The notes beneath the pieces are model-generated. The model ran no database searches, had not been told where the DNA came from, and saw only the letters and a list, made by a program, of their open reading frames with translations. From the NCBI GenBank assembly GCA_030445865.1, contig JASUSV010000001.1, forward strand, positions 1 through 64,000: a stretch of DNA of 64,000 nucleotides, in the 5' to 3' direction. Positions 6,193 to 12,420 of this stretch are shown here, one piece after another. The position numbers and the translations under genes were made by a program. How positions within the stretch are numbered: the first letter of the stretch is position 1; each line of letters starts with the position of its first letter. The stretch is from Clostridia bacterium. Its GTDB lineage: Bacteria > Bacillota > DSM-521 > Neomoorellales > Neomoorellaceae.

Positions 6193-6246
6193 ATTATATA
6201 TAGCGTATATTAAAATTAAATTAGCATCAGGTTAAAATTAGATTAA
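6193..6246 (-). promoter_or_regulatory. Pho box with four 11-bp-spaced repeats and a -10 element
   Basis: On the minus strand, reading toward pstB, four hexamers follow each other at an exact 11-base period: TTAATC (6241-6246), TTAACC (6230-6235), CTAATT (6219-6224) and TTAATA (6208-6213). Nine bases further on is TATAAT (6193-6198). This matches the Bacillus-type PhoP site of TT(A/C/T)A(C/T)A repeats separated by 5 bases, placed over the -35 region. The first repeat overlaps the stop codon of the upstream giant gene. Activation of pstB-phoU under phosphate starvation is inferred. Confidence 0.7.
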
Positions 6247-9200
6247 CACCGGCAAATAGCCCACGGCACCAGAACCTCTTGGAGGGAACAGCCGCCGTGC
6301 AGGTAACGGGGTTCCTCTTTATGACGGTAATTATAATTTATGGCGAAACCATGATCGGCAAAGAGCACGACGAGGGACCCCGACGGCAAGGCTTCCAGGA
6401 ACGGCAAAAGCCGGCGCTGCACCTTTAAAATAATTTCTTCGGTGAAGGCCAGGTAATCGTCGCTACTGCGGTGGACTTCCGCATCGATAAAGTTAAATTT
6501 TAATAAACAATCATCGAGGTCAAAAAGGCCACCCTCCTCATCACAATTTACAACTTTTGCAAGCCTCTCCCCCAACAACTCCAGCTGGGTTTCGGTTACT
6601 GTCGGCAGGACGGCCCAGCAAAAACCTTCTTCCATAACTTTGAGCTTTAATTCGGATTTCCTTAATTCTCTTTTAACCAGTTCCCAGATATCCCAGCGCA
6701 TGCCGTCCAATAAAATAAATTTAACAGCAGCCGCGTTCTGCCGCCGGTAGAGCGACGCAACCCGGTCAAAAAGGACGTCCAGGCGGCGCTCTTTTAAATC
6801 TTTCTCCGGCACGCGCCGGTAAAAATCTTCAAATTGACGCCGGCAAGTCATAAGCAGGCGGCGCATTCTAACACCGTTGAGTTCAAGGGGAAATTTAGCC
6901 GCCAGGCCTAAGGCCGTAATCTGGGCCACTGCGCGGGCGTAAATATGTTCCAGCAACCCCAGATCATCACGATAAAGCTCCTCCCAGGCCTGAGGCGTAT
7001 CCAGGTGCTTGCAATTCAAAGCAGCTTCCAGGTCATTCAGCCTTTTTAAAAGGTCCGCGAAAGTGCGGCAGGCAGATAAGTAAGCCTGCCGGGCCAAAAA
7101 AGCCCCTTCTTCCTCCCCGGCTTTAAGTTCTGCTATTGCCTCCTTAAGGTCGTACCCACCGGCATGGGCCAATTCCTGGCCCAAGTATATGGTTCCTCGC
7201 TCCAGAATAAAGGTAAACACTTCTTCCCGGCGCAAAATCTCGATCCAGAGCCTTATTCCCCGGTCCCGCCCTGCAATCAGAAACTCCCAATATAATTCCT
7301 GCCATCCCCGGTCCTGCAAAACCTGCTCCGCCACCTCGCGAACTTCCTGCCTCAGTTCAGGGCGCGCTTGCCGCAACTCTCCAACTGGCGCTGCCAACCT
7401 TTTCAAGATATCCGGATCGGCAAAAGGACCCAAATCCGACAGCATCCTGACATTGGTAGCCTCCAGACCGTGGGCAGCCATCCACCAGCAGGTAGCCAGG
7501 GCCAGGAAAAAATTCTGAAGACCCCATTTATCCAAAAAGGGCAAAAGCTCAGGATAACTACCAGTCACCCATGTCCTAATATTTACCCGGCCCGCAAGCC
7601 GGGAGGTGCGACCTTCGGCAGCGATACGGGCTGCCGGCCCCTGTTTGTCTGCCTCGCCGTGCACGCGGATGTAAGTCTCCGGGCCCAGGACCTCCTCGCC
7701 CTGGAGCCAGCGCTCGAAAACAGCCCGTATTTGCTCCTGGGTGAATACCCTCCCGGCCAGCAAACGGCAGAGTTCGCCCAAGTCTCGCTCGGCCACCAGA
7801 TTTGAACCCGCCAGGGCCTTATTTAAATCCTCAATAAGGTTGCGGTTCATTAGAGCTAGGAACCTGGCCAGATCTTCCCCGGATTCGGGGTCGAGTTCAA
7901 GTAGTTTTTGCATCCTGGCAGCCTGCTTCTGGCGACCGACCTCCAACAGGCCACCTATAAAGCTGCGCAGTTTTTGGGCACAAGCCGGCTCCTGAAGGGC
8001 GCGAAGGTACTCGGCTAGGCCCTGCTCCATCTCCTGCTGGATTAATGCCGGGCCGGCCAGGTCCTCCTTTTCGCCCAGGCGAAAGCCGCAGAAGCAAGAC
8101 GGGTGGATGGTCAAAAGTCGCCGGTCGGCAGCCGTACATTGCCGCGCCAGTATATCCTGCAGCCGGCCTTCCACATAGGCCAGGTCATGGGGTACAGCCA
8201 GGGCCCGTACTTGAGCCAGCAGGTTCAGGGCACGGTAGGTGGCGGTTTCTTTTAAGGCCAGGTAAGCCTCAAAGCGCCGCGGCGAGCGTTGTTTTTCATG
8301 GCCAGCCAGGTATAATTCGGCATAAGCTTCCTGGAAAAGGTTGAATTCTTTCTCCAGCCGCTCATAACCCCCGGCAAAAAATATTTCCTCATTCTGGGCC
8401 AGGTGCAGCAGGTTCTGGCGCTGGCGGGCGAGTTCCCGGTAAGGCTCTTCCTCGGGCAGTACGAGCTGGGGGGAAGACAGGTAGCCGCAAATAAAAAGAT
8501 AGCGGTCAAGCTGCTTAACGAGAAAGGTATGCAGAGAGGAAACGCGCTGCCAGTGCCGCTCCCAAAAAGGGCTGGCCTGGTAGGCGGTTAAAAAGCGCGC
8601 CAGTCCTTCCTGGGGAGCATAAGAAACTTTAATCTCTTCCAGAAGGGCGGCTACCTGCTCCAGGCTTTCGCGTAAGTTTTGCTCCCGCAGGATGGCCAGG
8701 GCCGGATATTTCTGCACCTGCTCGAGGCGCTGGCGAACTTCTTCTAATATAGCACCGGCTTCTTTTTTAAAGTTAATCAGGTATTCCCAGACTTCTTGTT
8801 GGGTGGCGTAAGAAAAAATCTCTTTCTTAAACTTAGCTGGTAAAAAGCGCACCTCGCTCAAGATTTTTAGGAAGCGTGGCGGTAGAACTTCGCCCCGGGC
8901 CAGGGATTCGATTTTCCAGAAGTTATAGGCACTGAGCTGTTGCAAACTTACCCGCCGACCGCGCTGCAGGGCGACAACTATGCCGCTGTAAAGCAGGGCC
9001 AACCCAAGAACGTGAAAGGCATTACGGCTCAAGCCAAAGGGGCCTTTACGGAGTCGGCGGTAAACTTCTTCCAGCGGCGCCTCCCCGCCCTCTACACCGG
9101 CCAAAAAGGCCGCTACCAGAGGATTTTTCTGCGGGTCTATGTGCAGCCGGTAAACCCCGCCAACCTTTTTCACCAGGCCCATGGGTTGCATGAAACCTTC

Positions 9201-11435
9201 TAAAGCCAGGCGCAGGCCGGGATCGGTCCGGGCGTTTACCTCGCCCGGCAACAAAAACTCCTCTATCAACCGCTGGAGAACGGGTTCGGTTATAATTTCA
9301 CTTATAGGAGCAATTTCGATATGCCTTGGATAGCGGGCCTGCAAGATGCCGTCGGCCAGCCTCTCAATAGTTTGGTCGAGACCCATATAGGCAGGGTTTA
9401 ACGCCCAGGAAACCAGGGCTCCTGTACCATCGAACAACCGACCCTGAAAATAAAGGCGGCGGTATATCTCCTGCACCTGCTTCTTCTTTTCCGTCAGAAT
9501 GTTCTTGAGGTAGGACTTTACTTTAACACCAGCAGGCGTATGGTCATTGGCGTATTCCATTGCCAGCTTGCGGTAAGCCCAGCACTCAGTTAGGGTCTCG
9601 CTTTCTTCTGAAGTAAGTGTGGCCGGGAGCCAGAAAAGGAAGCCTGTCCTTACATTTTCTGGCAATAACGGCAACATATCTTCCCGGTCTCCGGGACGGG
9701 CCAGGAAGATTACCAGGTCGACTTCGGTCTCGGCGGTTTCCCTGGCCAGGGAGGCTATTTCTTCTGCTCCCATATCTCCCAGGTGCTTAAAAAGCAACAG
9801 CCCCTGCCTGGGCGTCTTCTGCCAGTTGAACTGCCTCCGGCTCCGCTCCGGCAGGCCGGCCAGGGGCAGGGCGGGTTCGTCCAACCAGGTCAAAAGGTCG
9901 TCTACCAGCCGGCGGTCGTCGGGGAAAAGGTCTTTCTTCAGGTAATCGACGCGACGCCGCACGAGTAGCTGCACGTCGGCCTCGAGGTCGATGGTAAAAG
10001 CGTCTTCCAGGGGGTCCTGGCCCGGCTTCACAGCCAAATAGGCACCGCCCTGGTAGAGGCGCTGCAGCAGTTCATGCAGGTACTCGTAATTGAAGCGAGG
10101 CTCAATCTGGCTGACCCGGCAAAGTAGGAGGTGGGCCAGATCTTTAACTTTAAGGCTTCGCCCCGTAGGTCGCAGGGCGGCCAGGATTAACAGCTTGACC
10201 AGGTTTAAAGCTAGTTCCTGCTCGCGCTTATCGCTGAAGATATTGCTTATTTCCCGCTCAAAAAAGCGGTATGCCCGCTGTAAGTAAATATTAGTTTCGG
10301 GCAACTCGCGCAATCTATCCAGGAAATAGTCGAAAATGGCGACGGGACTTAAGATGGCCCCTAAGGGCCGCTCTAAAAACCCCTCGATGCGACGGCCGGG
10401 GTCGCCCCGGAGGTGGGTATAGACGAATTCGATGACGCCACGCCGCTGGGAAAAGAGCAGGCGCAGTTCGTCCAACAGGGGTACGGCCAAAGGGTGGACG
10501 GGGTAGAGTTCCAGGTAATCTTCCCAGGAAAAAGGGAGATAGGGAAAGGCGCGCTGGAGAGCAGCAAAATACGGTTTTAAATGAGCAACCGCCCCTTCCT
10601 TTTTGGGCACCAGCCGCCGGGCGATTATTTCTCTTATATGCCCGCCCCCCAGGCGGAGGCGGATGGGATAACGGTCCTTGATCTTATTAAAGGATTCCGG
10701 CGGAATGGCGCCGGTTTCTTCCAGTTGTTCCTGGAGGGTGGCCACAATCCAGCAGGGCAGGTCGGGCGCCTTTTCACCTAAAAACTGCAAGAAACGGATA
10801 TCCTCGTTAAAAGTGCGGCTATCCGGCTTGGAGCGCAAAAACTCGGAAAGCTCGTCTAGAAGCAATACCATCCCCGCCAAGCCGTTGTCCCTTAGAACCC
10901 GGCCGAGCCGGGCAAAATATTCGCGGCGCCGGTACTCCTGGGACGGCAGACCGGCGCCGGCCATACCTTTAAGCTTTTCCTGCAAGGCCTGCAAAACTAT
11001 CTCTTCCAGATATTCGCGGTTGCTATGCTCTACTAATGAGATTTCGGCTACTAAATAGCGTTTATTTTCTAGCTTCTTCAGGAGGGCCACTAGATCGCCG
11101 GGCCAGGGACGGTCGTCTCCGGCGGTCAATATCTTCCTGGCGCCGGGATCGGTGAGCATAAGGCCCAGGACGCTTAAAAGGTGCGACTTGCCGGAACCGT
11201 AATGGCCGTGAAGAAAAAAGCCGCGGCCCTCTCCGTTGGACATGGCCTGAAGCACGGCGGCCAGGGCAAGTTCGCCGTCGTCCGTGAGTACGAAACTCTC
11301 TAACAACTGCCGGCGCAGAACAGGGTCCTGGGCGTCGGCCAGACGGACAACCGTTCGCACCGGATAAAGAGTTATAATATCGCCCACGGTAAGCTCTGCA
11401 CTGGAAACGAGTTGCTCATTTCCGACTCTTCGCAC
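6243..11435 (-). CDS. Giant BrxC/PglY-like P-loop ATPase fused to a C-terminal PglZ-type domain
   Basis: A 1730-residue cytoplasmic protein. N-terminal AAA-like ATPase: Walker A GHYGSGKSH (77-85), Walker B MVLLLDELSEF (189-199), a sensor-like ATLQEQLEETG (232-242), then SFNKIKDRYPIRL, the layout of DUF6079/BrxC/PglY proteins of BREX and Pgl phage-defence systems. The middle (about 400-1560) is helical with a possible Cys pair (CFCGF). The C-terminal 165 residues match the PglZ alkaline-phosphatase-fold domain: FILLDGMRWD (about 1573-1582), LPTVTETQ with the nucleophile-position Thr, LFADHGF (about 1694-1700), and RYLHGG followed by EVLVPW. GTG start with AAAGGAGG 9 bases upstream. The start overlaps the TPR gene by 20 bases. 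No methyltransferase, nuclease or BrxL is nearby. A defence or regulatory role is inferred. Confidence 0.8.
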   Translation of the reverse strand: MRRVGNEQLVSSAELTVGDIITLYPVRTVVRLADAQDPVLRRQLLESFVLTDDGELALAAVLQAMSNGEGRGFFLHGHYGSGKSHLLSVLGLMLTDPGARKILTAGDDRPWPGDLVALLKKLENKRYLVAEISLVEHSNREYLEEIVLQALQEKLKGMAGAGLPSQEYRRREYFARLGRVLRDNGLAGMVLLLDELSEFLRSKPDSRTFNEDIRFLQFLGEKAPDLPCWIVATLQEQLEETGAIPPESFNKIKDRYPIRLRLGGGHIREIIARRLVPKKEGAVAHLKPYFAALQRAFPYLPFSWEDYLELYPVHPLAVPLLDELRLLFSQRRGVIEFVYTHLRGDPGRRIEGFLERPLGAILSPVAIFDYFLDRLRELPETNIYLQRAYRFFEREISNIFSDKREQELALNLVKLLILAALRPTGRSLKVKDLAHLLLCRVSQIEPRFNYEYLHELLQRLYQGGAYLAVKPGQDPLEDAFTIDLEADVQLLVRRRVDYLKKDLFPDDRRLVDDLLTWLDEPALPLAGLPERSRRQFNWQKTPRQGLLLFKHLGDMGAEEIASLARETAETEVDLVIFLARPGDREDMLPLLPENVRTGFLFWLPATLTSEESETLTECWAYRKLAMEYANDHTPAGVKVKSYLKNILTEKKKQVQEIYRRLYFQGRLFDGTGALVSWALNPAYMGLDQTIERLADGILQARYPRHIEIAPISEIITEPVLQRLIEEFLLPGEVNARTDPGLRLALEGFMQPMGLVKKVGGVYRLHIDPQKNPLVAAFLAGVEGGEAPLEEVYRRLRKGPFGLSRNAFHVLGLALLYSGIVVALQRGRRVSLQQLSAYNFWKIESLARGEVLPPRFLKILSEVRFLPAKFKKEIFSYATQQEVWEYLINFKKEAGAILEEVRQRLEQVQKYPALAILREQNLRESLEQVAALLEEIKVSYAPQEGLARFLTAYQASPFWERHWQRVSSLHTFLVKQLDRYLFICGYLSSPQLVLPEEEPYRELARQRQNLLHLAQNEEIFFAGGYERLEKEFNLFQEAYAELYLAGHEKQRSPRRFEAYLALKETATYRALNLLAQVRALAVPHDLAYVEGRLQDILARQCTAADRRLLTIHPSCFCGFRLGEKEDLAGPALIQQEMEQGLAEYLRALQEPACAQKLRSFIGGLLEVGRQKQAARMQKLLELDPESGEDLARFLALMNRNLIEDLNKALAGSNLVAERDLGELCRLLAGRVFTQEQIRAVFERWLQGEEVLGPETYIRVHGEADKQGPAARIAAEGRTSRLAGRVNIRTWVTGSYPELLPFLDKWGLQNFFLALATCWWMAAHGLEATNVRMLSDLGPFADPDILKRLAAPVGELRQARPELRQEVREVAEQVLQDRGWQELYWEFLIAGRDRGIRLWIEILRREEVFTFILERGTIYLGQELAHAGGYDLKEAIAELKAGEEEGAFLARQAYLSACRTFADLLKRLNDLEAALNCKHLDTPQAWEELYRDDLGLLEHIYARAVAQITALGLAAKFPLELNGVRMRRLLMTCRRQFEDFYRRVPEKDLKERRLDVLFDRVASLYRRQNAAAVKFILLDGMRWDIWELVKRELRKSELKLKVMEEGFCWAVLPTVTETQLELLGERLAKVVNCDEEGGLFDLDDCLLKFNFIDAEVHRSSDDYLAFTEEIILKVQRRLLPFLEALPSGSLVVLFADHGFAINYNYRHKEEPRYLHGGCSLQEVLVPWAICRC

Positions 11436-12420
11436 CAGCGCCTGCCTCCTTTTCTAAACGGTTAGCAAGGCCCCATAGGGCTTTCAATTCAGGGTTTTGC
11501 CGGGCCAATTCCCGCAAAAATTCGGCTCCTTCGGCCTGCCTGCCTAAACTGCGGTAAAGGCTAAGCAAAGTTGTACGCAAATAAATATCCCTGGGCTTCC
11601 GGCGAAAAGCTTCCTGCAAAGTAGCCAGGGCTTCTTTTACCTGCCCCAGGCGGTACAGGGAGTACCCCAGCTGGCCCAGGAGGTAAAGATTCCCCGGCGA
11701 AATCTCCAATCCCTGCCGGTAGGCTTCTGCAGCCTTGGCGTAATGCCCCATCTGGTAAAGGAGGTTTCCTTTCAGGATATACAGGTGGGGATTCTGGCCC
11801 CGCTTGCCAGTCTTAAGCATGATCTCCAATTCTTGTAGAACCTCTTCCGGAGGACGGCCGGAAGAAGAGAGTTTAAGGCAACTCCGGTAAGCAAACTGAT
11901 CGCCCGGGTCCAGGCGTAGAACCTCGGACCAGGCCTGGGCAGCCCCTTCCATATCCCCCAGCTTTTCAAGTACCTGGGCCAGTTGACGCCAGAGGCGGCC
12001 ATCATCTCGATTTTTGGCCAGCATTTGCCGTAAAACGCCGGCGGCGGCTTCACCCTGGCCGCTCGCCAAATAAGCCTGAGAAAGGCGCACGGCCAGAAAA
12101 GAGGTGGGGTATAAAGCAAATGCGGCGGCAAATAGCCGGCCGGCTTCCTCCCAACGCCCCTCTTTATAGGCAATATCTCCTTTGACTACCAGAGCCTGCC
12201 AATTAACAGGGTCGGTTTTTAAAACTTCGTCGGCCAGAAAACCGGCTTCCAGGTACCTGCCGCGCCGCCGGTACACGTCGGCCAGGCTGGCCTGCAAAAC
12301 CGTAGCTCCGGGAAAACGTTCCAGCGCCCGCTGCAGGCGCCGCTCTGCCTCTTGCAGTTTTCCGGCTGATTTAAGCTTCCTTATAATTTTGATTTCTGCC
12401 TCTAACGCCACCTGCTCCAC
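11416..12420 (-). CDS. Tetratricopeptide-repeat protein coupled to the giant ATPase
   Basis: A 334-residue soluble protein built almost entirely from TPR helix pairs, about nine repeats. Examples are AEAYRQGLEISPGN, AAQAWSEVLRLDPGD and EALATLQEAFRRKP. There is no signal peptide, membrane helix or catalytic domain. TPR superhelices normally act as protein-binding scaffolds. The start is a GTG with AGGAAGGT upstream at a rather long spacing. Its last 20 bases overlap the start of the ATPase-PglZ gene, so the two are translationally coupled and the proteins probably work together, perhaps with the TPR protein presenting a partner or substrate. Function is otherwise unknown. Confidence 0.85.
   Translation of the reverse strand: MEQVALEAEIKIIRKLKSAGKLQEAERRLQRALERFPGATVLQASLADVYRRRGRYLEAGFLADEVLKTDPVNWQALVVKGDIAYKEGRWEEAGRLFAAAFALYPTSFLAVRLSQAYLASGQGEAAAGVLRQMLAKNRDDGRLWRQLAQVLEKLGDMEGAAQAWSEVLRLDPGDQFAYRSCLKLSSSGRPPEEVLQELEIMLKTGKRGQNPHLYILKGNLLYQMGHYAKAAEAYRQGLEISPGNLYLLGQLGYSLYRLGQVKEALATLQEAFRRKPRDIYLRTTLLSLYRSLGRQAEGAEFLRELARQNPELKALWGLANRLEKEAGAGAKSRK

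Follow-up and report, generated by a model that had tools for sequence, protein, structure and literature searches.

A BrxC/PglY-type ATPase and a PglZ-type domain in one polypeptide, with a TPR-repeat partner: probably a stripped-down relative of BREX

The stretch of DNA analyzed here, referred to as the window, comprises 64,000 nucleotides from a Clostridia bacterium (GCA_030445865.1, contig JASUSV010000001.1, positions 1–64,000), and the element of interest within it is a two-gene cassette on the minus strand. The larger gene (6243..11435, minus) begins with a GTG at 11435, stops at 6243 and encodes a 1730-residue protein in which an ATPase of the BrxC/PglY (DUF6079) family is fused to a PglZ-type domain; in bacteriophage exclusion (BREX) and phage growth limitation (Pgl) systems these are separate proteins. 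A first-pass annotation of the window had the coordinates and length of this open reading frame (ORF) right but the strand wrong, and we rejected the plus-strand reading of 6243–11435 because stops occur throughout it. A Shine-Dalgarno-like AGGAGG (11445..11450, minus) lies 9 bases before the GTG, within a second gene that encodes a 334-residue tetratricopeptide repeat (TPR) protein (11416..12420, minus; Pfam TPR_2, E = 2.4e-31). This gene overlaps the start of the fusion gene by 20 bases, and the two are therefore almost certainly co-translated. As first noted, the vicinity of the fusion in the window is free of genes for a methyltransferase, BrxL, BrxA/B or a nuclease; the co-oriented, overlapping TPR gene had been overlooked.

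Profile and fold searches bear out the proposal that an ATPase and a PglZ-type domain share one chain. The N-terminal half contains an ORC/Cdc6-like AAA+ ATPase domain of the BrxC/PglY type (residues 17–341; 10413..11387, minus), which matches Pfam DUF6079 (PF19557) with E = 1.1e-41 and a score of 142.8 bits (cut-off 23); DUF6079 is the Pfam family that includes BrxC (PMC12839542). BrxC models of the PADLOC library match the fusion down to 4e-31, and a profile built from residues 1–1195 of 41 homologues finds solved BrxC chains with E-values between 3e-19 and 4e-17, with 9zn5 matched at E = 3.2e-19. The AlphaFold model of this half (predicted local distance difference test score (pLDDT) 87, predicted template modeling score (pTM) 0.50) returns BrxC structures 9zll (5e-11) and 9zdx (1e-10), followed by ORC/Cdc6 proteins, and the BrxC fold match continues past residues 17–341 into the next region. 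The Walker A motif GHYGSGKSH (residues 77–85; 11181..11207, minus) and the Walker B motif LLLDELSEF (residues 191–199; 10839..10865, minus) are strictly maintained at their key positions, as G77, G80, G82, K83, S84, D194 and E195 are identical in all 54 aligned full-length homologues. Also identical in 54 of 54 fusions is a cysteine motif, C1100-x13-C1114-x-C1116 (8088..8138, minus), which is possibly a metal-binding knuckle and a marker of this branch of BrxC proteins; it is kept in two unfused relatives described below (loci L159 and L160) and absent from the BREX BrxCs at loci L041 and L042. The motif supplies just three cysteines for the supposed metal site.

The C-terminal half ends in a PglZ alkaline-phosphatase-fold domain (residues 1571–1730; 6246..6725, minus), an assignment drawn from profile, fold and residue conservation. 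The Pfam PglZ model gives E = 1e-3 and 19.5 bits, under its 25-bit cut-off, and is matched at E 0.01 by just 8 of 43 homologues; because this match is merely suggestive, the assignment leans on other evidence. The NCBIfam model BREX_PglZ_3 matches at 3e-7, a profile of the family's last 531 residues matches the response regulator PorX at 5e-7, and the AlphaFold model of residues 1200–1730 (pLDDT 88.7, pTM 0.82) is closest to PorX (8e-9) and to a BREX PglZ, 9zn5_B (6.6e-8). Ahead of the PglZ core, the AlphaFold secondary structure places a helical linker resembling that of PorX and PglZ (residues ~1440–1570; 6726..7118, minus), and the PorX profile match spans it. The motifs quoted in the first-pass annotation (LLDGMRWD, PTVTETQ, ADHGF and YLHGG) are real, and their key residues hardly vary among homologues of many different phyla: D1577, T1614, D1651, H1655, D1694, H1695 and H1713 are each kept in 52–53 of the 54 aligned full-length proteins. 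Judging by their spacing, these residues fit the complete metal and nucleophile set of the alkaline phosphatase superfamily. T1614 and H1713 align with the catalytic T272 and H500 of PorX (profile alignment counted by hand, with a 5-residue construct offset removed). The equivalents of T272 and H500 in Escherichia fergusonii PglZ are T538 and H741, and in that protein T538A abolishes DNA cleavage and lowers defence by ~3 logs (PMC12205998). From its sequence and predicted fold, the C-terminus reads as a divergent PglZ domain with its active-site residues intact.

The fusion is an old, maintained architecture rather than a local accident. A single-sequence search of genome contigs returned no match, and a search with the family alignment returned 80 loci, most of whose untruncated members have an open frame of about 1480–2140 residues; the frame is uninterrupted across the 54 aligned full-length homologues. 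Fusion homologues occur in at least eight phylum-level groups, and the taxa labeled in the records include Bacillota, Deltaproteobacteria, Acidobacteria, Nitrospirae, Nitrospinota, Actinomycetes, Verrucomicrobia and candidate phyla. In a tree of the ATPase domain the fusions fall on one side of a branch separating them from the sampled BREX BrxCs, with a support of 92 in the Shimodaira–Hasegawa-like approximate likelihood ratio test (SH-aLRT), and a longer alignment gives a fusion clade with an SH-aLRT of 99 and the L159/L160 branch just outside; both are quick trees with long branches. The ratio of nonsynonymous to synonymous substitution rates (dN/dS) of the fusion is ~0.17 in a Moorella pair and ~0.14 in a second pair. 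The values for the fusion and TPR genes range from about 0.13 to 0.17, close to the ~0.13 of the neighboring Mfd, and both genes evolve under purifying selection.

The TPR gene is a conserved partner of the fusion. In 65 of 83 homologous loci it is found on the same strand upstream of the fusion gene, adjacent to it in 51, and about half of the 18 loci lacking a TPR match have little upstream sequence. Among 399 genomes of the phylum, the TPR partner (E below 1e-30) is found in 13, and a strong fusion match (E = 0) is found in exactly those 13. G114 and G168 are the only other genomes of the phylum in which the ATPase match is strong, and they contain the unfused relatives. The genus Moorella shows the cassette coming and going. 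In G014 and G016 exactly the TPR and fusion genes, an insert of 6.76 kb (L033 7772–14534), sit between a prsA-like gene, which follows mfd, and a spoVT-like gene, names that we assume from the usual gene order. In G006, G009, G011, G012 and G017 the pair is absent and the flanking genes are 143–190 bases apart; in G015 the fusion is broken and the pair is decaying; and in G008, G010 and G013 (L139, L138 and L140) the site after mfd has lost most of the prsA-like gene and does not hold the pair, although G010 keeps a remnant of 38 bases. These filled and empty sites indicate that exactly two genes are gained and lost as a unit and can be done without, as is the case for defence modules. A candidate effector next to the fusion in Moorella, a gene of ~1190 residues, was rejected, as it is Mfd and part of the host site.

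Clustering of the genes around the homologous loci reveals few other companions. A RecQ helicase gene precedes the fusion in 12 deltaproteobacterial loci, mostly placed immediately behind the TPR gene, and an SNF2 helicase gene is present at varying positions in 5 loci; TPR, RecQ and SNF2 are the recurrent families that were checked by Pfam. The fullest version seen is a four-gene, same-strand array, TPR–RecQ–fusion–SNF2 (L074:210–12052). The helicases of these lineages point to DNA, not a small signaling molecule, as the substrate. Besides TPR, only a loose group of ATPases, including PstB of the window, recurs widely, at scattered positions and on either strand. No methyltransferase family, no BrxA/BrxB or BrxL family and no messenger-making or messenger-sensing family recurs in the clustering. 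A motif screen of 82 loci for N6-methyltransferases, as distinct from a full profile scan of all neighbors, gave nothing convincing, and no methyltransferase is present among the window neighbors examined. Two other neighbors were rejected as partners, as neither recurs: a 670-residue periplasmic-binding-domain protein (L070) and a 575-residue radical-SAM protein (L063).

The unfused relatives suggest where the cassette came from. Their ATPases are 1381 residues (L159) and 1310 residues (L160) long. The L159 locus, a BREX/Pgl-type locus resembling type 2, is ordered as an Eco57I-type methyltransferase, a TaqI_C specificity protein, two small ORFs, BrxC, PglZ, BrxD and BrxHI, and in L160 a methyltransferase-like protein is encoded just upstream of the relative. 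The L159 locus holds the nearest unfused BrxC, which has the same C-x-C motif as the fusions and pglZ only 8 bases downstream; it differs from the fusion loci in that the genes are separate, a methyltransferase and a helicase are present, and the TPR-partner profile finds no match. The simplest history would be one in which adjacent brxC and pglZ genes fused, the modification arm was lost and a TPR gene was gained. The two small ORFs that separate the specificity gene from brxC in L159 (158 and 259 residues, within L159:10381–11596) match nothing in Pfam or PADLOC and are possibly divergent BrxA/BrxB-like parts.

A comparison with named systems sets the cassette apart from each of them. It shares with the BREX/Pgl core of BrxC(PglY), BrxB and PglZ the same ATPase family, the same nuclease fold and the active-site threonine and histidine of PglZ; in BREX, BrxC and PglZ form one complex that is bridged by BrxB (PMC13326643). 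Of the BREX features, the BrxC/PglY-family AAA+ ATPase is present, as is a PglZ with an intact metal site, although under the Pfam cut-off. A PglX/BrxX methyltransferase, in whose place type 4 has phosphorothioation genes, did not emerge from the neighbor clustering or the motif screen. Separate brxC and pglZ genes with BrxA/BrxB-like parts are not found, as the two form a single chain in more than 50 homologues whose loci are without methyltransferase, BrxA, BrxB and BrxL, and a TPR partner is not described in BREX. By the features compared the cassette is therefore not a BREX member, as it has no methyltransferase and no separate core genes. BREX-Related Capture (BRC) likewise combines a DUF6079 ATPase with PglZ outside classical BREX, but as separate genes and with a universal HerA/FtsK translocase, a STAND NTPase and DUF4007 (PMC12839542). 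No HerA/FtsK, STAND NTPase or DUF4007 gene recurs among the clustered fusion neighbors, and without a recurring HerA/FtsK the cassette is not BRC. BREX-Related type-3 resembles it in having PglZ as the proposed primary nuclease, but it uses a DUF499 ATPase alongside a standalone PglZ and retains both a Swi2/Snf2 helicase and a methyltransferase (PMC12839542). The Pfam matches of the fusion include DUF6079 and not DUF499, and the cassette is thus none of BREX-Related types 1–3. PorX is the closest solved structure for the linker and PglZ region, with T272/H500 corresponding to T1614/H1713, but it has a CheY-like receiver in place of the BrxC ATPase, and no such receiver is among the Pfam or NCBIfam matches of the fusion. 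PorX serves in the regulation of type IX secretion. In the literature searched, outside of which lie most subscription papers and bioRxiv preprints, we found no description of the cassette, whether as a BrxC–PglZ fusion, under DUF6079 or as PglZ with TPR.

The two-gene cassette is thus probably an undescribed, stripped-down relative of BREX. The first-pass suggestion of a compact defence or signaling system in which an ATPase is tied directly to a phosphodiesterase still appears the best reading of the genes, to which a TPR partner and lineage-specific helicases can now be added. On the sequence and model evidence, we favor a BREX/Pgl-derived, methyltransferase-free module of two genes that combines an ATPase with a nuclease, and its most likely role, held with similar confidence, would be defence against phages or other invading DNA. 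The broader proposal, that this is a widespread and undescribed immune system with ATPase and nuclease in one polypeptide, activation by the TPR protein and modification-free discrimination of invaders, has in our judgment about an even chance of being correct.

Such a module would work like the BREX effector core, with the ATPase and nuclease kept in one chain and the modification arm dropped. The TPR protein may act as sensor or scaffold that binds some signal of invading or abnormal DNA and relays it to the fusion. By homology, the ATP-bound BrxC/PglY part would then bind DNA and assemble on it, as BrxC binds DNA with ATP and oligomerizes (PMC13326643). Assembly would put the attached, metal-dependent PglZ domain on the DNA, where it may nick or cut; BREX PglZ cuts DNA and also cleaves the cyclic oligonucleotide cA6 (PMC12205998). 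Where present, the RecQ and SNF2 helicases probably feed DNA to the fusion. With both parts in one chain, a BrxB-type bridge is unnecessary, as the covalent link replaces it, and with no methyltransferase a locally encoded methyl mark cannot separate self from non-self, so the trigger must be something else; candidates are an invader protein, the structure of the DNA or its replication state. The use of BrxC and PglZ in BREX has been hard to dissect, since several proteins are required for the complex and methylation is entangled with it. A naturally occurring one-chain form, with a single partner and without a methyltransferase, would allow direct study of the coupling of ATP to nuclease activity, and would show the BREX effector core acting without modification-based self recognition. 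The family is poorly recognized, with few Pfam PglZ matches and only piecemeal BrxC and PglZ matches from the PADLOC library.

Several observations weigh against a defence module. A nuclease that acts by itself, with no modification gene beside it, would require some further control. Three loci (L037/L068, L096 and L119) carry homologues of the ATPase part (1338–1376 residues) with no PglZ core detectable at the locus, and in another (L161:3032–8550, the L097 locus) an in-frame TAG splits the fusion into ORFs of 1352 and 469 residues that keep both domains, which may be a natural split, a pseudogene or a sequencing error. The neighbors in the window are metabolic (PstB, PhoU, SHMT and FTHFS), with no defence island seen, and in the plasmids and viral contigs searched the matches went no further than BrxC level and mostly covered the ATPase part. 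A rival reading is a DNA-repair or genome-maintenance module, in which the ATPase would bring the PglZ nuclease to stalled forks or unusual DNA, aided by RecQ or SNF2, as an accessory stress function rather than immunity. The RecQ and SNF2 companions, the ORC/Cdc6-like ATPase, the absence of the fusion from the plasmids and viral contigs searched and the chromosomal sites beside housekeeping genes such as mfd and folate-pathway genes are all in keeping with it. We nevertheless regard it as unlikely, given that the cassette is very patchy within the single genus Moorella and lost tracelessly in close relatives, that its nearest unfused relatives lie in methyltransferase-linked BREX/Pgl-type loci, and that the characterized proteins pairing these two domains are defence proteins. 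Furthermore, the neighbors of the homologues show no fixed housekeeping context.

The PorX matches raise the question of whether the fusion is instead a signaling enzyme, with PglZ degrading cyclic or linear oligonucleotide messengers under the control of the ATPase and TPR protein, and so tuning or ending a second-messenger response. The best profile and fold matches of the C-terminus are to PorX, a phosphodiesterase on cyclic oligonucleotides, and cA6 is also cleaved by BREX PglZ (PMC12205998). This seems less likely still than a repair function: the BrxC part in the same chain comes from a family that binds DNA, helicases are the companions that recur, and no messenger-making or messenger-sensing family recurs among the neighbors. 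That the fusion is a remnant or a chance read-through from a decayed BREX locus in this genome alone can be regarded as refuted: the genome does hold, on a different contig, what is left of a type-3 BREX-like locus, but more than 50 full-length homologues from many phyla keep the catalytic residues, and the purifying selection, conserved TPR partner and single clade also speak against it. A defence module stays the preferred interpretation, with repair and messenger degradation as real alternatives.

Downstream of the fusion, PstB and PhoU are encoded on the same strand, and the other nearby genes (SHMT and FTHFS) are metabolic. A functional link to the adjacent PstB/PhoU was rejected because the neighbors differ at other loci. 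Elsewhere in the genome no second DUF6079 gene was found. The decayed type-3 BREX-like remnant lies on the minus strand of contig G000:C11 (L158:200–4386) and contains PglZ in two overlapping ORFs, pieces of a BrxHI/HII helicase, and the start of BrxF fused in frame to a helicase fragment.
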